From: a virus
Virus record (IMG/VR): IMGVR_UViG_3300042923_000762
Span: 1 to 63,480 of that record
Strand: one strand, 5' to 3'
Length of the DNA: 63,480 nt
Position numbers and translations under genes: made by a program. The notes below the pieces were generated by a model that was not told the origin of the DNA, did not search any database, and saw nothing but the letters and a program-made list of their open reading frames with translations. Positions 3,294 to 63,480 of this stretch are shown piece after piece; the stretch's first letter is position 1; the number at the start of each line of letters is the position of its first letter.

Positions 3294-5883
3294 TGAGTGT
3301 TCAGGTAAAGTTTACCCCAAGCTAACCGGGGCAGCTATGAATGCAAGAGTACAAGCATTAGTTAATTTTTCTGGTTTAATGGTTATCGGAGAATCCCCTA
3401 CGGCTATGGAGGCTAGTAGGGGAACCATTATGTCGGGGCAAGGCGCGCAGGTATTAAAGGATACGTTATTAAAGGTAGGGATGCCTTATAAAGATGATGA
3501 GGTATATTACACTACCGCATTGAAATGTGCTGTTCCCAAGAAGAAGGGACAAAAGATTCCTTCTGACGCACCAGTGAATTGCCGTCAATATTTATTAAAC
3601 GAAATCCGCGTAGTACAACCCTCTATGATACTTGTCTGTGGTTCAACTGCAATTACGGCACTGTATGGTGATTCGAAGTTAAAAGTATCTGAGATGTATG
3701 GTCGTGTATTTGAAACTGACTTTGCACCAGGAGCAAAGATTATTCCAATAATGAATCCTGGACTGTTAATACATAAGCCGGGAGATTATAAGCCATTCTT
3801 AACTATGCTTCAATTGGCATCTACTATTTTCCATGGAGGCGATCAGGTAGACACAGGGGAAACAAAGTGGACTGTATTGGATTCAGAAGCAAAATGTGAT
3901 CAGCTGTGGCAAGAGATGATGTATGCTGCAGAGGATGGTAGCCTTTTAAGAGCTGCATACGATATAGAGACCACGGGTTTGGATTATCGTGTTGTAGACT
4001 TCCTTGTAATGGGTATTTGTTTTGAAAAGAATCATACATGGATTATTCCGCGAGAGATGCGCCATCTCGTGCATAATTTCTTAGAGGGGATTAAGTGGAA
4101 ATGTATTTGGCAGAATGGTAAATACGATAAGAAAGTTATGTGGCGTCGTAATCTAGGCACGGTGCATATTGACGAAGATACACAATACATGCATTATGTA
4201 TTAGATGAGACATCGGAGCATGGCCTAGGTTATTTATCAAAGACTTTCCTTAATGCTAAGGAATATAAGTACAAGATGAATCAGCAATTTAAGGTTATCA
4301 CTCTCGAGAATTATCCACAGTACTTTGAATCTTTATGTGAGCGTGTTGCGGTCGACTGTGATTACACTTTCCAATTAGCTGATAAGTTTGATGAGTTACA
4401 TCATGATCCTGAAAACGCTTGTCTGGATAAGTTATACCATGAATTACTTATCCCCGCGGCTAACTATCTTACCAGAATAGAACAGAACGGTGTACTTGTA
4501 AATGCAAAGTATCTCGATATACTGGATAAGAAGTATAAAGTCATTCTTGAGAATATTCTAGCAGAAGTAGATGAACTTGCTTCTCCGTTTTGGGATCCGG
4601 AGTTATATAAAGCTCAAACAGGAGCAAAAACCGCCTTTAAGAATTTTAAAGCTGGCAGTTCAAAACAGATGTCTTGGATGGTATTTGATAGACTGAGGTT
4701 AAAGCCTCGTGTTAAGAAGGGACGCTCTACAAATGCCGATGTACTTGAATCCATTGAAAATCCACCGCCATTAATTAAGAAGGTATTAGAGTACAGAACG
4801 GTAAAGAAAGAACATTCAACTTATGTTATAGGTATTTTGAATGCTCGTGATGTTGATGGCCGTGTCAGAACGAACTTCACATTACATGTAACAGCAACTG
4901 GGCGTTTAAGTAGTAAAGAACCGAACATGCAGAATCAGCCATCTGCCAATGGTGTGGGTAATATACGTAAAGCATTTATTCCAGCGCCAGGTAAAGTTTT
5001 TGCAGAGATTGACTATTCCGGTGCAGAGTTGCGGTGGCTGGCATTTTTATCAGGTTGCCCTGTATTATCTAAAGTATTTATTGAAGGGCGTAATCTTCAT
5101 ACTGAGACAGCAACCGCTTTGTTTGGTGAGCATTTTACGAAGATTGAAAAGATGCGTGCTAAGGCAGTTAACTTTGGTATTCCGTATGGGCGAGAATCAA
5201 AATCATTCGTCGATGAGTTCGATATTACGGAAGCTGAAGCGCAAGCAATGATTGATGGCTGGCTCGATACCTACCATGGTGCGAGAGATTATTTGAAATG
5301 GTGTGCTGACCAAGTACAGCAAGGTAATTATCTTGAGACTCCTTGGGGACGTAGAAGGCGTTTTGGGTTAGTAACAGCGGCATCGCTACATTCATTGCAG
5401 AACGAGGCAAAGAACTTCCCTATTCAATCATCTTCATCAGATTTATTATTATGGTGCGGTATGGCTATGGAAGAAACTTTGGAAAAGCAATATAATACAA
5501 AACAATTGGATTTAATTCATGATTCTGATTTAATGGAGATCCCAGCAGATGAACAGACACTTATTGCAGTAGCAAGATATTGTAATGACGTAATGGTTCG
5601 TGCTCCTAAAGAATTATTTGATTGTCCTATTCCTTTTAAGACTGATTTTGAAATTGGGGTTAATTGGGGTGAATTGGTTACTTTTGATTATAATGAGGCA
5701 GATCCTGCTAGACGAATTCAGATTGAACATAAAGATGGTACAATGGAATATCATACGTTTGATGAGTGGTATCAGGCAGCTATGGCAGCGGAAGATCGTT
5801 ATGATGATTTAACTAGACCTTTTCAAGAAATTGTAGACGGAAGTAGAACGAATGGTTTAGATGATGAGGATGAAGAAGAATAG
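3283..5883 (+). CDS. polA: UDG-like domain fused to family A DNA polymerase
   Basis: The 866-residue replicative polymerase. Residues about 25-185 resemble family 4 uracil-DNA glycosylase, with GES-P..ME (about 36), four candidate Fe-S cysteines (3, 6, 85, 100) and a CGSTAITALYG core; the usual HPS motif appears as NPG. A DnaQ-type 3'-5' exonuclease follows, with DIETTGL at Asp227, QNGKYD and AVDCDYT. The polymerase domain has motif A EIDYSGAELR (Asp577), motif B K-AVNFGIPYG (about 627) and motif C IHDSDL (His746-Asp747), where the usual Glu after HD is Ser. The tail is acidic. The first genes here are coupled (overlap of 11 bases). It replicates phage DNA, and the UDG part may sense or remove uracil. 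Confidence 0.93.
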   Translation: MGCNECSGKVYPKLTGAAMNARVQALVNFSGLMVIGESPTAMEASRGTIMSGQGAQVLKDTLLKVGMPYKDDEVYYTTALKCAVPKKKGQKIPSDAPVNCRQYLLNEIRVVQPSMILVCGSTAITALYGDSKLKVSEMYGRVFETDFAPGAKIIPIMNPGLLIHKPGDYKPFLTMLQLASTIFHGGDQVDTGETKWTVLDSEAKCDQLWQEMMYAAEDGSLLRAAYDIETTGLDYRVVDFLVMGICFEKNHTWIIPREMRHLVHNFLEGIKWKCIWQNGKYDKKVMWRRNLGTVHIDEDTQYMHYVLDETSEHGLGYLSKTFLNAKEYKYKMNQQFKVITLENYPQYFESLCERVAVDCDYTFQLADKFDELHHDPENACLDKLYHELLIPAANYLTRIEQNGVLVNAKYLDILDKKYKVILENILAEVDELASPFWDPELYKAQTGAKTAFKNFKAGSSKQMSWMVFDRLRLKPRVKKGRSTNADVLESIENPPPLIKKVLEYRTVKKEHSTYVIGILNARDVDGRVRTNFTLHVTATGRLSSKEPNMQNQPSANGVGNIRKAFIPAPGKVFAEIDYSGAELRWLAFLSGCPVLSKVFIEGRNLHTETATALFGEHFTKIEKMRAKAVNFGIPYGRESKSFVDEFDITEAEAQAMIDGWLDTYHGARDYLKWCADQVQQGNYLETPWGRRRRFGLVTAASLHSLQNEAKNFPIQSSSSDLLLWCGMAMEETLEKQYNTKQLDLIHDSDLMEIPADEQTLIAVARYCNDVMVRAPKELFDCPIPFKTDFEIGVNWGELVTFDYNEADPARRIQIEHKDGTMEYHTFDEWYQAAMAAEDRYDDLTRPFQEIVDGSRTNGLDDEDEEE

Positions 5884-5891
5884 TGTTACTA

Positions 5892-5930
5892 GAAAGGGCA
5901 TTCATTAATTGTGAATGTCCTTTCTTTTTG
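5892..5930 (+). terminator. Terminator after DNA polymerase
   Basis: Stem GAAAGGGCATTCA (5892-5904) pairs with TGAATGTCCTTTC (5912-5924), with one G-U pair and a short loop, followed by TTTTT. It lies 8 bases after the polymerase stop and faces the late operon's terminator on the other strand. Confidence 0.9.
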
Positions 5931-5957
5931 CGCTTTAGTAAGCCCATTATGGCAATT

Positions 5958-5984
5958 CCACCGGTCCCAGCTCTAGCCCATCTC
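5958..5984 (-). repeat. GAGATGGGC hairpin element, copy a
   Basis: Read on the minus strand it is GAGATGGGC, then TAGAGCTGG, then GACCGGTGG. It belongs to a dispersed family found also near 33643, 33764, 35244, 42591, 49162 and 54430. It sits between two convergent terminators in a noncoding spacer (5931-6033), so it is not coding here. Confidence 0.5.
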
Positions 5985-6033
5985 TTAATGCCATGATAAG
6001 TAGAAATGTTGTTTATTCCGAGGGTTTATGGGA

Positions 6034-30338: not shown

Positions 30339-30417
30339 TCGATTCACCTCCAATTCTGTATTTGTAACAAGCGAAGCTGTTAAGACGTTTGGTTCCGTCT
30401 ATCAATCTCCCTATATT

Positions 30418-30450
30418 AATATAATACGAAAAATTCTAGTATTATTAACG
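30418..30450 (-). promoter_or_regulatory. CGTTAA-class promoter of the late structural operon
   Basis: On the minus strand CGTTAAT (30450-30444), then exactly 17 bases between GTTAAT and TATTAT, then TATTATATT (30426-30418). It is one of seven near-identical promoters in the genome and is placed 80 bases before the first late gene. The leader can form a hairpin AGACG/CGTCT near 30396-30380. Confidence 0.8.
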
Positions 30451-31009: not shown

Positions 31010-31100
31010 TATAGGGATATATGTATATAGGTATATATCTATATGGATATATCATAGTATCTATAGAGGTATTATATACCTATATAGATATATCCCTATA
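31010..31100. repeat. 27-base inverted repeat, cruciform candidate
   Basis: The arm TATAGGGATATAT-G-TATATAGGTATAT (31010-31036) is repeated inverted at 31074-31100 with one mismatch. The 37-base centre is itself AT-rich and partly palindromic. Such a structure can extrude as a cruciform under supercoiling and is typical of origins or regulatory switch regions. It lies 166 bases before an early promoter. Confidence 0.75.
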
Positions 31101-31265
31101 GAATAGAGGTCTCTATATAGAGGTTAATAGGTTAGTGGAGTAGACCCGGAGCTTACCCGGGCTGGGACTGTCGCGGGGTACTCAATTAACGGAGCAATCT
31201 GACAGACGCAAATATCTCTAAACCGATTGAGTAAATATCACAACAATTTTATATCAATTTGGGGA

Positions 31266-31294
31266 TTGACATTTTAATGAAATTATTATATAAT
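31266..31294 (+). promoter_or_regulatory. Host-type early promoter A1
   Basis: TTGACA (31266-31271), 17 bases, TATAAT (31289-31294): perfect consensus for a vegetative sigma factor. The -10 is half of the palindrome TATAATTAATTATA, followed by AAGATAA, an arrangement shared with promoters at 33894 and 51214. It drives the first HTH-repeat gene. Confidence 0.92.
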
Positions 31295-32389: not shown

Positions 32390-32630
32390 ATATTAGGGAG
32401 AGCGGAGTGGGCCAGGTTGGCCCGGGGCACCCGGTCTCGAGGGCATGCGAGGCGGACTTGGCGCACCATAGTGTGTGTTGCCGCTCGCGATGCCCAAAGA
32501 ACGACCCGCCCGGGTCCGCTCGGGGCCCACTCCGACCGCCCATAAAACCCTGCAGACGGGCGATACGGTGAACTACTCCTAGCGCCCATAAAACAGCATA
32601 GATGAGTCCCAACTCAATGGGCTCATCCTT
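32390..32630. other. GC-rich island 1
   Basis: A noncoding block far richer in GC than its surroundings. It includes GAGTGGGCCAGGTTGGCCC (about 32405-32423), two minus-strand TTTTATGGGCG motifs (near 32538 and 32582), and a stem GATGAG/CTCATC (32611-32616 and 32631-32626 region). Similar islands lie at 33565-33830 and 35225-35400. Nothing here reads as a credible gene. Confidence 0.55.
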
Positions 32631-45287: not shown

Positions 45288-45319
45288 AGATGTACCTCCA
45301 TCAAAATTTATTTTATATT

Positions 45320-45352
45320 AATATTATACAACATTTTCAAATATTTTTAACG
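45320..45352 (-). promoter_or_regulatory. CGTTAA-class promoter of the small-gene operon
   Basis: On the minus strand CGTTAAAAAT (45352-45343), with 17 bases between GTTAAA and TATAAT, then TATAATATT (45328-45320). Same form as six others. Confidence 0.8.
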
Positions 45353-48993: not shown

Positions 48994-49061
48994 AAACTGC
49001 CCTCCTTAATATTATTAGTAGTGTTGTATTTTAGAATATTATATTTCTAAAAATCTATATT

Positions 49062-49094
49062 ATTATAATATTAAAAAATAATATATTTTTAACG
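49062..49094 (-). promoter_or_regulatory. CGTTAA-class promoter of ligase/primase operon
   Basis: On the minus strand CGTTAAAAAT (49094-49085), 17 bases between GTTAAA and TATTAT, then TATTATAATA (49070-49061). It is divergent from the promoter at 49247. Confidence 0.8.
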
Positions 49095-49190: not shown

Positions 49191-49246
49191 TGTGCAGAGG
49201 GGTCTTTAAATGATTTTAAATATTTTCAAAATTATTTGCTTAGCTC

Positions 49247-49275
49247 GTTAAAAATAAATTTGTTTTGGATATTAT
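49247..49275 (+). promoter_or_regulatory. CGTTAA-class promoter of HTH-repeat gene 3
   Basis: CGTTAAAAAT (49246-49255), 17 bases between GTTAAA and TATTAT, then TATTATAATA (49270-49279). Followed by the 5' hairpin CGATATA/TATATCG (49285-49301). Confidence 0.8.
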
Positions 49276-49284
49276 AATAATATA

Positions 49285-51213: not shown

Positions 51214-51242
51214 TTGCTCTTTTTTCATATTTGTTATATAAT
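51214..51242 (+). promoter_or_regulatory. Host-type early promoter A3
   Basis: TTGCTC (51214-51219), 17 bases, TATAAT (51237-51242), then TAATTATAAGATAA. It is the third promoter of the early type and drives the sigma-RuvC fusion. The -10 lies within TATAATTAATTATA as in A1. Confidence 0.88.
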
Positions 51243-51284: not shown

Positions 51285-52472
51285 ATGGACCACTATGCAG
51301 AAAAAACAATGGAATACTTTAAAGCGATCAAAGAAGGACGGGGTGACTTTATAGAACTCCGTAATAAGATTGTTGAGCTTAACATTCGCCTTGTATCGCA
51401 GGTGCTTAAGAAGTATAAACCATACACTGCTGACCAGTTTCAAAATGGCTGTCTTGGTTTAATCACAGCAGCCAATACTTATGAGCTTATGCGTGAGGTA
51501 CCTTTTTCTTCATATGCATGTTTTTGCATTAATCGAGAACTACAGAAGGCCCATAAGATGAAGATGGAGGAGATCGAATCTCAAGTAAATTCAGACAATT
51601 GGGTCTACTTAGATGCACAAAGAACCTTGTCCAATGGCGATACAACAGATAACTACGATATCTGCTATGATGAACATGCTGAGCAGGACTTAATGAAGTA
51701 CATTGAAGATAATGAATTGTCTTTTATAAGTGAGAACATTATTAAGCCCTGTATACAAGAAGTAGCGGATAGAGGAAAACATATGCAGACTAAGATAGAC
51801 GTGAGTCAATGGCAACGTTTAGAGTTCCTGTATATTATGGATTTAGTCTTCCTCGATTCACAGAAACAAAGGTTAAATCTTTCCCAGATGTCTATGACGT
51901 TAGGTGTTGCCGTTCAGAATGTTAGAATGAGGCATGAACGCGTCATGGAAAATATATTTCAAAGGATGTGGATTTATATGACAGTGGGTTTCAACGATTT
52001 ATTCGAACGATTAAGAGGACAGAAAAAAGTACCTGACCGGTTATTATGTTTAGATCCTGGTAAGACAACAGGATGGTGTGTCTTTGAAAAAGGAATATTA
52101 ACCAAAACCGGACATGTAGAGAATTGTTATGACGATGAAAACATCGACACTACGGGGTTATTAAACTTATTTGAGGAAGTTAAACCGGACTTTGTTTTGT
52201 ATGAAGACTACAGAGTGTATGAAAGTAAACTAGAACGCCATGCTAACAACCCGGTGTACACGTTAAGACTTATTGGTACGATTGAAGCTTATTGTCAGAT
52301 GAATAAATTAAGTCATCACAGACAAATGGCTACTACAGCTAAAAATTTCGTGACCGATGATAAGCTTAAATCTTGGGGCTTCTGGCAAACTGGTATGCGT
52401 CACGCGCGAGACGCAATTAGACATGGGTGTTATTTCTTATTATTCTATAAGAAGGGACAAGATATTGAATAA
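51285..52472 (+). CDS. Sigma-70-like factor fused to RuvC-like resolvase domain
   Basis: A 395-residue fusion. Residues about 20-85 match sigma region 2 (VELNIRLVSQVLKKY, DQFQNGCLGLITAANTYE, VPFSSYACFCINREL). Residues about 185-230 look like region 4 (FLDSQKQRLNLSQMSMTLGV, then VQNVRMRHERVMENI). From about 250 on there is a RuvC-like nuclease: LDPGKTTGW with Asp257, VLYEDYRVY with Glu307 and HARDAIRH with Asp376. No stop or start separates the two parts. A weak internal start (MTVGFNDLF) might yield the resolvase alone. It has an early host-type promoter. It may direct RNA polymerase to CGTTAA promoters and act at branched DNA. The dual role is inference. Confidence 0.88.
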   Translation: MDHYAEKTMEYFKAIKEGRGDFIELRNKIVELNIRLVSQVLKKYKPYTADQFQNGCLGLITAANTYELMREVPFSSYACFCINRELQKAHKMKMEEIESQVNSDNWVYLDAQRTLSNGDTTDNYDICYDEHAEQDLMKYIEDNELSFISENIIKPCIQEVADRGKHMQTKIDVSQWQRLEFLYIMDLVFLDSQKQRLNLSQMSMTLGVAVQNVRMRHERVMENIFQRMWIYMTVGFNDLFERLRGQKKVPDRLLCLDPGKTTGWCVFEKGILTKTGHVENCYDDENIDTTGLLNLFEEVKPDFVLYEDYRVYESKLERHANNPVYTLRLIGTIEAYCQMNKLSHHRQMATTAKNFVTDDKLKSWGFWQTGMRHARDAIRHGCYFLLFYKKGQDIE

Positions 52473-54704: not shown

Positions 54705-54722
54705 CCGTTACTCTTAAGCTAC

Positions 54723-54751
54723 GTTAAAAATCTTTTTAATTAGGATATTAT
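54723..54751 (+). promoter_or_regulatory. CGTTAA-class promoter of the helicase operon
   Basis: CGTTAAAAAT (54722-54731), 17 bases between GTTAAA and TATTAT, then TATTATATTAATATA (54746-54760). Confidence 0.8.
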
Positions 54752-54782
54752 ATTAATATAAAACGAATTCAAGGAGGTTCTT

Positions 54783-55202
54783 ATGGAACAGGGATTTGCA
54801 TTTAGTTTCACACCAGAAGAGGAGTTAAAATATCCTATTAAACAGAATCCAAAACAACTGACGTTGGACTTAAGCGGGATGCTAGACTACACCCCTATAT
54901 CAAAAGGGCAAAGAGAAGCAATCGTCCTAATTGAAAAATATACCATGCATGTATTTATTGGGAGGGATGCAGCGGATGCTTCAGAATTTATTGGTGCCCA
55001 TATGGAGGAATCCATAGCGGCATCCAGAGCTAGAGGATATAATAGAAATTGTCGTTCATATCATTCTGATCATAACTATAGTGCTAGTGATGAAGATGAT
55101 TACTTTATATCTTGGCCAGATAATGATGACTGTAATGATAATCTTTGGGTTCCCGGATTTGGAATTCATTGTGCTAATGACATCAAATCAAATTGTTGGT
55201 AA
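54783..55202 (+). CDS. Hypothetical protein, 139 aa
   Basis: Begins MEQGFAFSFTPEEELKYPIK after AAGGAGGTTCTT. The middle has AIVLIEKYTMHVFIGRDAADA, then a His/Ser/Asp/Asn-rich segment (SYHSDHNYSASDEDDYFI) and a Cys-containing C-terminus. No family recognised. It opens the helicase operon and may be an accessory of replication. Confidence 0.6.
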   Translation: MEQGFAFSFTPEEELKYPIKQNPKQLTLDLSGMLDYTPISKGQREAIVLIEKYTMHVFIGRDAADASEFIGAHMEESIAASRARGYNRNCRSYHSDHNYSASDEDDYFISWPDNDDCNDNLWVPGFGIHCANDIKSNCW

Positions 55203-57074: not shown

Positions 57075-57091
57075 ATGGAAGATTTTGACAC

Positions 57092-57120
57092 GTTAATAAT
57101 CTATAATTTTTTAATATTAT
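57092..57120 (+). promoter_or_regulatory. CGTTAA-class promoter of the nuclease operon
   Basis: CGTTAATAAT (57091-57100), 17 bases between GTTAAT and TATTAT, then TATTATAATATTATAG (57115-57130). A hairpin ATTATAGA/TCTATAAT (57124-57146) follows in the leader. Confidence 0.8.
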
Positions 57121-57123
57121 AAT

Positions 57124-57146
57124 ATTATAGATGTCAAGTCTATAAT
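57124..57146 (+). promoter_or_regulatory. 5'-leader hairpin of the nuclease operon
   Basis: ATTATAGA (57124-57131), loop TGTCAAG, TCTATAAT (57139-57146). Perfect 8-bp stem next to the transcript start. Confidence 0.55.
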
Positions 57147-57169: not shown

Positions 57170-58540
57170 ATGTCGCAAGAAGCAGATTTAGGGTTACGTA
57201 GTAAGTTCACTGTCAGAACTTCTGACAGGCGCGTCTTTCGTCGATGTCCAAGAAAATGGGCTTTTCAATCATCGATGAAGGGCAATTGGAAAAGCATGGG
57301 TACAGAACAGAATTTGAATTTCTGGTTTGGCTCAGCAATCCATTTTGCAATGGAAGATTATCACGGATGGAATCGATTCAAAGATCCCCGTAGAGCATTC
57401 CATGCATACTATAATGCATTTCCTTCAGAAGAATTACCTGGAGGGGCCCCCGGTGTGTATGAATTAGGTATGTCAATGCTTAGTTACTATTTGACATGGT
57501 ATCCTAAGCACAATGATGTAGCTGGCTTTGAAACTGTTTGGTTTGATAAGGATAGAAATCCTGTCGCACCATTTAGTGAGGGAGCAGAACCTGGAGTAGA
57601 ACAGTCATTTTACATTCCGCTTAATGTATGGGTAGCAACAACTATCGATACAGATGAGATTGTTGAGACCTATTGGGATAAAGAGAGTCTTCCTTGGACA
57701 GAGGATCCCGACGGAGAAGTTATTGTACAGGGTAAGCGTTGTCGCGTCATTCCTATCATGTATCATGGTACTATGGACCGTATTGTCATAGATAAGTATG
57801 GTCGTTGGTGGATTCTCGATTATAAGACGGCTAAGGGAGCAGATACAAATAAGCTTGACACTGATGATCAGATCAGTGCTTATTTATGGGCTGCCGCTCA
57901 ATGGTTTGGTCATGAGTTTTATGGCTTCATCTATCTGCAGTTAACTAAGGATATGGTACAAGAGCCTAAGAGATTGAAGGATATGTCCTTGAGTGTAGAT
58001 AAGAAACAGAAAACTACATACAGTCTCTTAAAGCAGGAGATCATTAAGGATTATGGCAGGGTAAATGCTGCGCCTGACAAACTTATTCAGTTCTTAAATC
58101 ATATGGCTGAACAAGAGGCACCAGAGGGTGATAGATTTATCCGTTGGGATTTCGTAAAAAGAAATAGACAACAGATTGATGCTACCTATAGACACATCTT
58201 AGGGGAGTTATCTATCATGCTTTTACCTAATTTGTATGCCTATCCTACACCTAACAGAGATTGTATCTGGGAGTGTTCTATCAGGGACATTTGTATTGCT
58301 CAGGATAAGGGAGATCAGGAAACAATTGATCTGGCTATGTCACATTATGAAAAGAGACCGCATACGGAAGATGGTAATATTGAACCTTGGAGAGAAAATC
58401 TTCATTATCCGGAGTCAGAGGATGATCTTATCCCGCTAGAAGATATACTAATGTTAGATCAGTGTATGCGTATTGAGTTAGAGAGTAGTACAGAAGATAC
58501 TTCGGGATTTAAGTTCTTATATGGGGAGGATGAAGAATAA
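57170..58540 (+). CDS. PD-(D/E)XK nuclease, RecB/Cas4-like
   Basis: A 456-residue nuclease. N-terminal RRCPRKWAFQSS and GSAIHFAMEDY resemble the start of RecB-type PDDEXK_1 proteins; the core has YHGTMDRIVIDKYGRWWILDYKT with the D-x-n-DYK motif (about 205-222) and QISAYLWAAAQ. The C-terminus has DCIWECSIRDICIAQ, which together with the N-terminal Cys could bind an Fe-S cluster (Cas4/AddB-like). It works with the Sak4-like ATPase and DUF669 protein in phage recombination. It overlaps the next gene by one base. Confidence 0.92.
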   Translation: MSQEADLGLRSKFTVRTSDRRVFRRCPRKWAFQSSMKGNWKSMGTEQNLNFWFGSAIHFAMEDYHGWNRFKDPRRAFHAYYNAFPSEELPGGAPGVYELGMSMLSYYLTWYPKHNDVAGFETVWFDKDRNPVAPFSEGAEPGVEQSFYIPLNVWVATTIDTDEIVETYWDKESLPWTEDPDGEVIVQGKRCRVIPIMYHGTMDRIVIDKYGRWWILDYKTAKGADTNKLDTDDQISAYLWAAAQWFGHEFYGFIYLQLTKDMVQEPKRLKDMSLSVDKKQKTTYSLLKQEIIKDYGRVNAAPDKLIQFLNHMAEQEAPEGDRFIRWDFVKRNRQQIDATYRHILGELSIMLLPNLYAYPTPNRDCIWECSIRDICIAQDKGDQETIDLAMSHYEKRPHTEDGNIEPWRENLHYPESEDDLIPLEDILMLDQCMRIELESSTEDTSGFKFLYGEDEE

Positions 58541-60003: not shown

Positions 60004-60031
60004 ATTGAAAAAGAAAAAAGCATCCTAACTC

Positions 60032-60060
60032 GTTAAAAATCTTAGATTTTTTAATATTAT
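60032..60060 (+). promoter_or_regulatory. CGTTAA-class promoter of the DUF669 / deazaguanine operon
   Basis: CGTTAAAAAT (60031-60040), 17 bases between GTTAAA and TATTAT, then TATTATATTATTATAAGATA (60055-60074). Followed by a long structured leader (60103-60324). Confidence 0.8.
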
Positions 60061-60102
60061 ATTATTATAAGATAGAAAATCAAAAAGCTATTTTATTTCC
60101 TG

Positions 60103-61130: not shown

Positions 61131-62099
61131 ATGTTCAATAAGTATCAGGATCAAGCGTGTGGTACCTTTAAGGTACATAAAGCATTAACTCCTCACCAGT
61201 CAGAATTACTCGATTGGAATAGTGGTCTCGGTGGAGAAGTAGGAGAAGTACAGGAAATTATTAAGCACCATGTCTATTCAGATGAACCTCTAGATAAAAT
61301 GCATCTGGCTAAAGAATTAGGTGATGTTCTGTGGTATATTTCAGCAATGGCAAAATCTAATGATATTGCACTCGAAGATATAGCTTCCTTGAATTTAGCA
61401 AAATTAAGTCATCGCTATGATGGTGGCGGCTATGATAACGCTAAGAGCTTAAGTCGACATGAGAAGGAGGAATTATTTAAAAATTCTCCCATTTATCGTG
61501 TATTGGAAGCCCGCATTAATAAACACGGAGTTGACGCACCAGTAAATATTATCTTCTTGGGGCCTGATGGGTCCGGCAAGACAACCATTTCGAAAGAAGT
61601 AGCTAAGAGATTGGGATTCACTTACCAGAAATGTGATTATCGTCAGCCGCGTAAACCTGAATTAGCTTTATCCCTTCTCAAATCTCAGACTAACATGGTC
61701 TATGATCGTTTCTATTATCCGGATGACATGTTGTATTGTAAGGTCAAGGGCATCGAACAAGAAGCTTCTTATTGGGCACAATATGACGCTGTAGATGATA
61801 TGTTATTGCAACTCAACACTATCATCGTGTATATTGATGCCTCTGATGAGGTATTAAAGCAACGTAGTAAGGTTTGGGCGGATGATTACGTAGCAACAAC
61901 AGATTTACCTCATATCAAGGAGTTGTATGATAATTTCCTCACATTCGCTCAAGAGGAAGAAAAGCTGGCCGTATTACAATATGATACTTCAAACATAGAA
62001 GCAGAATCTATGGATTATCAGATTCTGATAGACATGATTATTGAAGATATCGATATAGAGCGGGCAAGATTTGGAGGTGTAAAGAATGCAGATAACTAA
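61131..62099 (+). CDS. MazG-like pyrophosphohydrolase fused to nucleotide kinase
   Basis: A 322-residue fusion. Residues 1-105 match MazG-type NTP pyrophosphohydrolase (GLGGEVGEVQEIIKHH, then LAKELGDVLWYISAMA: the E-x2-E and E-x-x-D metal motifs). Residues about 140-300 form a thymidylate-kinase-like P-loop kinase (NIIFLGPDGSGKTTISKEVA, then MVYDRFYYPDDMLY, the DRxYxS-like motif). It may clean the nucleotide pool and phosphorylate dTMP or a modified dNMP. It overlaps queD by 14 bases, tying it to the modification operon. Confidence 0.85.
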   Translation: MFNKYQDQACGTFKVHKALTPHQSELLDWNSGLGGEVGEVQEIIKHHVYSDEPLDKMHLAKELGDVLWYISAMAKSNDIALEDIASLNLAKLSHRYDGGGYDNAKSLSRHEKEELFKNSPIYRVLEARINKHGVDAPVNIIFLGPDGSGKTTISKEVAKRLGFTYQKCDYRQPRKPELALSLLKSQTNMVYDRFYYPDDMLYCKVKGIEQEASYWAQYDAVDDMLLQLNTIIVYIDASDEVLKQRSKVWADDYVATTDLPHIKELYDNFLTFAQEEEKLAVLQYDTSNIEAESMDYQILIDMIIEDIDIERARFGGVKNADN

Positions 62100-62532
62100 A
62101 GAAGTAACTTTTGATTGTGCTCATATGTTATCAGGGCATAAGGGTTTATGTGCTAATCTTCATGGACATACTTACAAGATGCAGGTAACTGTAGAAGGTA
62201 AATTAGTCGATGAAGGTTCTTCGGAGGGTATGTTAATTGATTTCTCTGACCTAAAGAAGGCGATTGAAGAGTGCGTTATGAAGAGATTTGATCACGCCGT
62301 TATATTCAGTACAGCGCATTATCGTAACGAGGCAGAAGAAGATCTGTTATGCTGGGCGGAGAAAAATAACATGCACCGCCTCATACTTAACGAGAGATCG
62401 ACTGCTGAGAGTATGTCCGTACAGATCCGGGATGAGATTAAGAACTACTTGTACTATGAACTAAAGCTTTACAATATTTCGGAAGTGCACATCAAGCTGT
62501 GGGAGACACCTACATCTTTCGCGGAGGTATAA
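62086..62532 (+). CDS. queD: 6-carboxytetrahydropterin synthase QueD
   Basis: A 148-residue QueD. Zinc ligands: His13 (FDCAHML), His26 and His28 (LHGHTY); catalytic Cys22 precedes them (GLCANLHGH). The second catalytic motif is FDHAVIF (about 71), and a later E-x-STAE (NERSTAESM) closes the active site. It converts dihydroneopterin triphosphate from FolE to 6-carboxytetrahydropterin, precursor of preQ0. It overlaps the kinase fusion gene and precedes queE by one base gap. Confidence 0.95.
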   Translation: MQITKEVTFDCAHMLSGHKGLCANLHGHTYKMQVTVEGKLVDEGSSEGMLIDFSDLKKAIEECVMKRFDHAVIFSTAHYRNEAEEDLLCWAEKNNMHRLILNERSTAESMSVQIRDEIKNYLYYELKLYNISEVHIKLWETPTSFAEV

Positions 62533-62533
62533 C

Positions 62534-63130
62534 ATGAGAATAGTAGAAGTATTTACGAGTATACAGGGTGAAGGTGGATTTATGGGAATGCCGGCCACCT
62601 TCATCAGGACTATGGGATGTAATTTAAAGTGTGATTTCTGTGATACTAAGAAATCATGGAAGCCGGGCGAAATGGTTGAGGGTGAAGATTTAACTCTCGA
62701 TGAGATCGTAGCAAAAGTACCTGATAATATCACATTGGTGGTTATCACAGGAGGAGAGCCTACAATCCAGCCTCAACTTGGGAATTTGATTGATAAGCTG
62801 CATCTGGCTGATAAGCATGTAGCTGTCGAAACTAATGGTACGATGGAGGTAGACGGTGAAGTCGACTGGGTCACGTGTTCCCCTAAAGCTGATGCTAATT
62901 ACATTATTAATTCTTTCTGTCGTCCTAATGAGCTTAAGTATGTTGTTACTCCGGATTTTGATCCTGCAGTAATAACTGAACCTATTCGGAAGTTATACGC
63001 GGGTAGGATTTGGCTACAGCCGGAAGGTAGCGACATACAGAATATGTGGAAACGCTGTTATGAAATAGCAATGGCAGACCCAAGATTACGTGTAGGCGTA
63101 CAGCTACACAAGTTAATGGAGGTAGAATAA
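62534..63130 (+). CDS. queE: 7-carboxy-7-deazaguanine synthase QueE
   Basis: A 198-residue radical SAM enzyme. Residues 29, 33 and 36 form the CNLKCDFC cluster motif that holds the 4Fe-4S cluster, preceded by IQGEGGFMGMPATFIR, the family signature; VVITGGEPT follows (GGE SAM motif). It turns 6-carboxytetrahydropterin into 7-carboxy-7-deazaguanine, the QueC substrate. It ends in the folE start (TAATG overlap), so the two are coupled. Confidence 0.95.
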   Translation: MRIVEVFTSIQGEGGFMGMPATFIRTMGCNLKCDFCDTKKSWKPGEMVEGEDLTLDEIVAKVPDNITLVVITGGEPTIQPQLGNLIDKLHLADKHVAVETNGTMEVDGEVDWVTCSPKADANYIINSFCRPNELKYVVTPDFDPAVITEPIRKLYAGRIWLQPEGSDIQNMWKRCYEIAMADPRLRVGVQLHKLMEVE

Positions 63131-63480
63131 TGTTATCTGAGAATCTTGATAAAGATTATTTACGTATGCAACGTATGGATGCTGTAACTATGTTACTTAA
63201 GACTATCCCGAACGAAGATGCTTTTCGTGAGGGTCTTCTTGAAACTCCTCATCGTGTAGCTAAAATGTATGATGAGATTTTCGGTGGTTATGAAATGGAT
63301 CCTTCTGTAATCTTAAGCAAGTCATTCGACGCGGGCAAGATGCATGATGATGAATGCGACGAAGCTGATGTTTATGCTAATGGTATTGTCATTGTCAGAG
63401 ACATCCCTTTTTACAGTCATTGCGAGCATCATATGGTACCCTTCTTCGGAAAGGCCCATATTGCTTACATAGCCAATGAA
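63130..63480 (+). CDS. folE: GTP cyclohydrolase I, N-terminal part (continues at base 128)
   Basis: The 5' part of folE, 117 codons, ATG at 63130 overlapping the queE stop. It begins MLSENLDKDYLRMQRMDAVT and includes TPHRVAKMYDEIFGGYEMDP, a family motif, and the zinc motif [10 protein letters not shown] in the last 40 codons. The gene goes on at base 128 of the window because the contig is circular, giving a full-length 209-residue enzyme. First step of preQ0 synthesis. Confidence 0.95.
   Translation, partial: MLSENLDKDYLRMQRMDAVTMLLKTIPNEDAFREGLLETPHRVAKMYDEIFGGYEMDPSVILSKSFDAGKMHDDECDEADVYANGIVIVRDIPFYSHCEHHMVPFFGKAHIAYIANE
63354..63480. repeat. Assembly overlap, right copy of 127-base terminal repeat
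   Basis: Exact copy of bases 1-127. See the left copy. It shows that the window closes on itself. Confidence 0.95.

Follow-up and report, generated by a model that had tools for sequence, protein, structure and literature searches.

RuvC-like resolvases have been described in phages as stand-alone proteins: those of PHROG 1981/159, the actinophage proteins named “RuvC-like resolvase” and the RuvC of phage bIL67, the closest structurally solved phage RuvC of which we found a description (PMC3864405). Sigma-70 factors resembling SigF, SigG and SigK are also found in phages (PHROG 351, for example that of Bacillus phage Eldridge). In T4, late transcription depends on gp55 acting with the sliding clamp gp45, and coupling is achieved via gp33 and the clamp (PMC2988020, PMC7892883). 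The gene considered here, known from sequence alone, encodes a nuclease domain with the same DPGxTTG, E, HxxD layout and RuvC fold as the phage resolvases, but appended to a sigma factor similar in sequence and fold to the PHROG 351 proteins. The nearest conceptual parallel, by analogy, is T4: both cases involve a promoter-specificity factor of phage origin and the notion that late transcription is tied to replication, but T4 has no covalently joined resolvase. The initial annotation put the sigma-RuvC fusion forward as a novel architecture, and neither the databases nor the mostly open-access literature searched yielded such a fusion or a characterised family of this kind. No match in phage sigma collections spanned both halves.

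The gene lies in a 63,480-base virus record, analysed over its whole length and hereafter referred to as the window. The window is probably a complete tailed-phage genome, because it carries an exact 127-bp direct terminal repeat (1-127 and 63354-63480). The terminase, portal, head and tail genes are on the minus strand, with the replication genes to the right. Near-perfect AT-rich inverted repeats at 31010-31102 are possibly an origin or a regulatory site. The fused gene and its upstream neighbour are as follows.

51285..52472, + strand: fused coding sequence, sigma factor plus RuvC-like resolvase, 395 aa; same frame in L116/L087, L152 and L153
50319..51191, + strand: Endonuclease VII-like HNH protein, syntenic neighbour directly upstream of the fused gene (PHROG 1035, 9e-12)

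Two resolvase-type nucleases are thus found side by side at this locus. The fused open reading frame runs from ATG to stop as a single frame of 395 codons, uninterrupted as first described, and the two halves of its product were analysed separately. Residues 1-231 correspond to a sigma-70-type factor, with region 2 and a region 4 helix-turn-helix.

51372..51551, + strand: sigma-70 region 2, residues 30-89 (Pfam PF04542; PDB sigma factors)
51870..51977, + strand: region 4-like helix-turn-helix, residues about 196-231 (Sigma70_r4 in 5/9 relatives; TIGR02937 span; model helices 199-206 and 210-233)

Pfam Sigma70_r2 matched residues 30-89 with an E value of 4e-5 when the whole protein was used as the query, and scored 24.4 bits, against a cut-off of 24, with the N half alone. 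This domain was recovered in all nine aligned relatives; Sigma70_r4 was recovered in five, although the window copy itself had no Pfam match to it. The N half alone matched PHROG 351 “RNA polymerase sigma factor” at 1e-12, and an alignment profile of the sigma half retrieved sigma factors among solved structures in the PDB, with values of up to 1.9e-16. TIGR02937 (sigma70-ECF) covered residues 25-224 with a score below its curated cut-off, and the best NCBIfam matches were sporulation-type SigK, SigF and SigG, all below their curated cut-offs. Foldseek searches with an AlphaFold2 model of the sigma half gave sigma factors throughout the top matches listed, with a fold match over both domains. 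The profile searches thus identified sigma homology in residues 1-230, in agreement with the region 2 and region 4-like assignment made at first reading.

Residues 232-395 form a RuvC-like nuclease domain with D257, E307, H373 and D376 intact.

51978..52469, + strand: RuvC-like resolvase domain, starting at M232, the residue aligned with the start codon of separate RuvC genes (PHROG 1981/159; Foldseek 4ld0)
52053..52055, + strand: catalytic D257, DPGKTTGW motif (alignment)
52203..52205, + strand: catalytic E307, YEDYRVY motif (alignment)
52401..52412, + strand: H373 and D376, HARD motif (alignment)

None of these four residues varied among the 16 sequences aligned; H373 is the HxxD partner. 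The Asp257, Glu307 and Asp376 positions given by the initial annotation were exact. The C half matched PHROG 1981, for which no function is named, at 1.6e-21, and the RuvC-like PHROG 159 at 0.002. The expected profile matches to this half were therefore obtained in part: the PHROGs were matched, but Pfam gave no RuvC match, and the RuvC identity is based on PHROGs, motifs and fold. The AlphaFold2 model of the full fusion had a mean pLDDT of 82. In Foldseek searches, its C half matched the structure of Thermus thermophilus RuvC in complex with a Holliday junction (4ld0; TM score by target 0.60-0.62, rmsd 3.6-4.1), and the full model also matched phage RuvC-like resolvases. These features suggest that the RuvC half is an active nuclease. 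A separate observation concerns L117, in which an HNH-like ORF (1723-2637) lies shortly ahead of the ETTG portion of the RuvC motif, an arrangement resembling the insertion of a homing element close to the catalytic site; an Rfam search of L117 gave no intron match.

The same single fused frame was present in three further IMG/VR contigs: L087/L116 (63% identical over residues 6-394), L152 (59%) and L153 (57%). Halves that are separate genes in other relatives could have been joined by an assembly or sequencing error, but this reading was rejected as having a negligible probability, because the same error would be needed in all four contigs, at 57-63% identity. A single-protein scan of viral contigs with the fusion found nothing, alignment queries being required; scans of genome contigs revealed no prophage copy of the fusion, and a plasmid scan gave matches to the sigma part only. 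The four fused proteins formed one clade in the trees for both halves, with support values of 100/97 (RuvC) and 100/99 (sigma). Two separate adjacent genes encode sigma and RuvC in L007, L009, L010, L011 and L012, and their reading frames overlap at the stop and start in L010 and L011; in L013, one small gene sits between the two. The separate pairs of L007-L013 belong to the same two families, in the same order, with 38-52% identity, but as two genes rather than one, and we infer that they represent the ancestral unfused state. The starts of their RuvC genes align with M232 of the fusion. As the halves are separate and adjacent in these relatives, the fusion is derived, by a single frame-joining event; as judged from these sequences, it arose once, from two neighbouring genes, in the ancestor of the four known phages. 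One small frame change is the simplest account, with a 1-base insertion and a longer deletion both fitting.

The junction retains features of the two-gene arrangement.

51957..51981, + strand: fusion junction TTTCAAAGGATGTGGATTTATATGA (comparison with unfused relatives; peak of synonymous-site conservation at codons 225-229)
51961..51966, + strand: Shine-Dalgarno-like AAAGGA ahead of the ancestral RuvC start (6-nt match in 3/4 fused genes)

The +1 frame at the junction reads GCGFI-stop, with a TGA (51979-51981) overlapping the ATG at 51978, like the sigma ends of separate genes, and is likely to be a vestige of the ancestral sigma end. The AAAGGA ends 11 nt before this ATG, which encodes M232, the old RuvC start kept in the fusion; the match is weaker in L153 (4 nt). 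When 276 in-frame internal ATGs from genes of this genome were sampled, only 10 had a Shine-Dalgarno-like match of at least 6 nt. Codons 225-229 constituted the third-ranked five-codon window for synonymous conservation across the four fused genes, with a naive z of 4.1 that ignores relatedness. Given the retained M232 start, the Shine-Dalgarno-like site and the excess synonymous conservation, free RuvC may still be made from the internal start. The conservation peak would also be expected for a programmed +1 frameshift at TTT-C, yielding the sigma factor alone (GCGxx-stop) and a RuvC restart at the overlapping ATG, with the fusion as one of several products, and TTTCAARGGATGTGG and the +1-frame GCGxx-TGA are kept in all four fused genes. 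However, the TGA is an automatic consequence of Met-Thr (ATGAC) and a Shine-Dalgarno site for the internal start accounts for the same conservation, so that we regard frameshifting as improbable.

The retained start and its Shine-Dalgarno-like site bear equally on the possibility that the fusion is neutral with regard to function, with both activities present and the chain shared only through loss of the stop codon at an overlapping operon junction. This reading assigns the same domain functions as our best explanation and differs solely on whether the joining matters. It fits an ancestral state of two adjacent genes with the stop and start near to each other or overlapping, from which only a few bases need change. 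Against this, the fused frame was kept through 37-43% protein divergence in the four contigs, with no reversion seen, and the junction sequence FQ[RG]MW.YMT was conserved. Neutrality is a serious contender, to which we give somewhat less than an even chance.

The CGTTAA promoters proposed in the initial annotation were resolved into a 39-nt element, CGTTAAWAAT-N14-TATWATANTANTATA, with fixed spacing and seven copies in the window, all intergenic and each directed at a gene or operon.

49246..49284, + strand: element, before ORF 49342 (HTH repeats)
49056..49094, - strand: element, before ORF 48993, ligase and primase
45314..45352, - strand: element, before ORF 45287
30412..30450, - strand: element, before ORF 30353 and the terminase/portal/head operon
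54722..54760, + strand: element, before ORF 54783 and the helicase at 55193
57091..57129, + strand: element, before the exonuclease at 57170 and the Sak4-like annealing protein
60031..60069, + strand: element, before ORF 60264, SSB and the following genes

The upstream box is CGTTAAAAAT and the downstream box is TATTATAnTAATATA. A position weight matrix of the element had no match in five shuffles. The bare CGTTAA hexamer occurred 23 and 17 times, as against about 21 per strand expected from base composition, so only the full element, a predicted promoter, is meaningful. Exact copies were present in all seven first-found records with a CGTTAA-type sigma factor and in none of 12 RuvC records lacking sigma; reversed-pattern controls gave none. 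A search of IMG/VR with the element alone, a reverse test in which fusion carriers were predicted from the element, gave 22 stretches in only 11 contigs besides the window, all from the same lineage. Six of these contigs were sigma carriers already known. Of the five new ones, both long contigs (59-60 kb) encode the fusion and the three short fragments share synteny with other regions of the window.

The diverged sigma factors of L012 and L013 were associated with altered elements at equivalent places. In L012, AGTWCATTTC replaces CGTTAAAAAT in five copies, with the same downstream box, whereas the upstream box of L013 takes a third form (GTTTCATTC or related) ahead of ATATTATATAAATATA. The upstream box is thus changed and the downstream box nearly unchanged, and sigma region 4 differs in these two phages as well. 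The syntenic L014, the RuvC of which is nested inside the clade, has neither a sigma gene nor the element; an 87-aa ORF (5747-6010) lies in place of sigma. It could be argued that the reader of the element is the host's sigma factor or a different phage factor, and that the element is merely co-inherited with the fused gene, as TATTATA resembles a host -10 box and all carriers of the element belong to one lineage. We consider this unlikely, given that the upstream box is not TTGACA, that element and sigma are both missing from L014 and that differences in the upstream box go with differences in region 4. The correspondence between upstream box and region 4 covers three types, and the co-occurrence of element and sigma could come from common descent alone; because shared ancestry may account for part of the covariation, the link between the sigma half and the 39-nt element is strong rather than proven. 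Reading of the element by the sigma half is the interpretation that we favour.

Conservation is higher in the RuvC half than in the sigma half (71% versus 57% for the window and L116, for example), as might be expected if the sigma half no longer initiated transcription and instead targeted the nuclease to DNA or RNA polymerase. This, too, appears improbable: positions in regions 2 and 4 are kept across the fused and separate sigma forms, and every fused phage carries the promoter element.

The fused gene itself is not preceded by the phage-type element, and a host-type promoter-like sequence was found in front of it.

51214..51242, + strand: host-type promoter-like TTGCTC-N17-TATAAT before the fused gene (sequence; comparable in L116 and L012)

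The equivalent sites are TTGATA-N17-TATAAT in L116 and TTGACT-N17-TATAAT in L012. Elsewhere in the window, a consensus host-type promoter, TTGACA-N17-TATAAT, lies before ORF 31367 (31266-31294), and the sequence downstream of it is common to the promoter region of the fused gene.

Taken as a whole, a bifunctional sigma and RuvC phage protein with its own promoters, joined once, is in our view the probable explanation. Sigma and RuvC would once have been adjacent genes in one operon, joined by a small stop/start frame change. The fused gene would be expressed early by the host sigma factor through its TATAAT promoter; the N half would then direct the RNA polymerase of the host to the 39-nt promoters of the phage, switching on the replication/recombination and packaging/structural operons in an early-to-later switch. 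The C half would cut branched DNA from phage replication and recombination before packaging, and the internal start would still supply some free nuclease. The simplest account is that of two useful activities in one chain. A further candidate reading, in which the RuvC half anchors sigma and host RNA polymerase on branched or replicating phage DNA, such that these intermediates license transcription from the CGTTAA promoters, is rather unlikely; comparison of the relatives favours, in the first instance, a joined two-gene unit, with replication coupling of lower probability.

The bifunctional protein would provide a compact, testable example in which a single polypeptide acts in both phage transcription and DNA processing and its predicted cognate promoters form a defined set. 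Natural controls are available in the unfused relatives and in L014, which has the nuclease without the sigma gene or element, and the changed upstream box in L012 and L013 makes recognition by sigma region 4 directly testable. The fusion goes beyond what was first noted in being recurrent and derived and in having a lineage-specific promoter-like set.

Two other features of the window were recorded. Short dispersed repeats, GAGATGGGC..., are present at 32487, 33764, 36437, 42590, 49161 and 54429; folding of five of these copies gave no signal of RNA structure, and Rfam yielded no match. QueC-, QueD- and QueE-like genes are located at 575-1294, 62086-62532 and 62534-63130, raising the possibility of 7-deazaguanine DNA modification.
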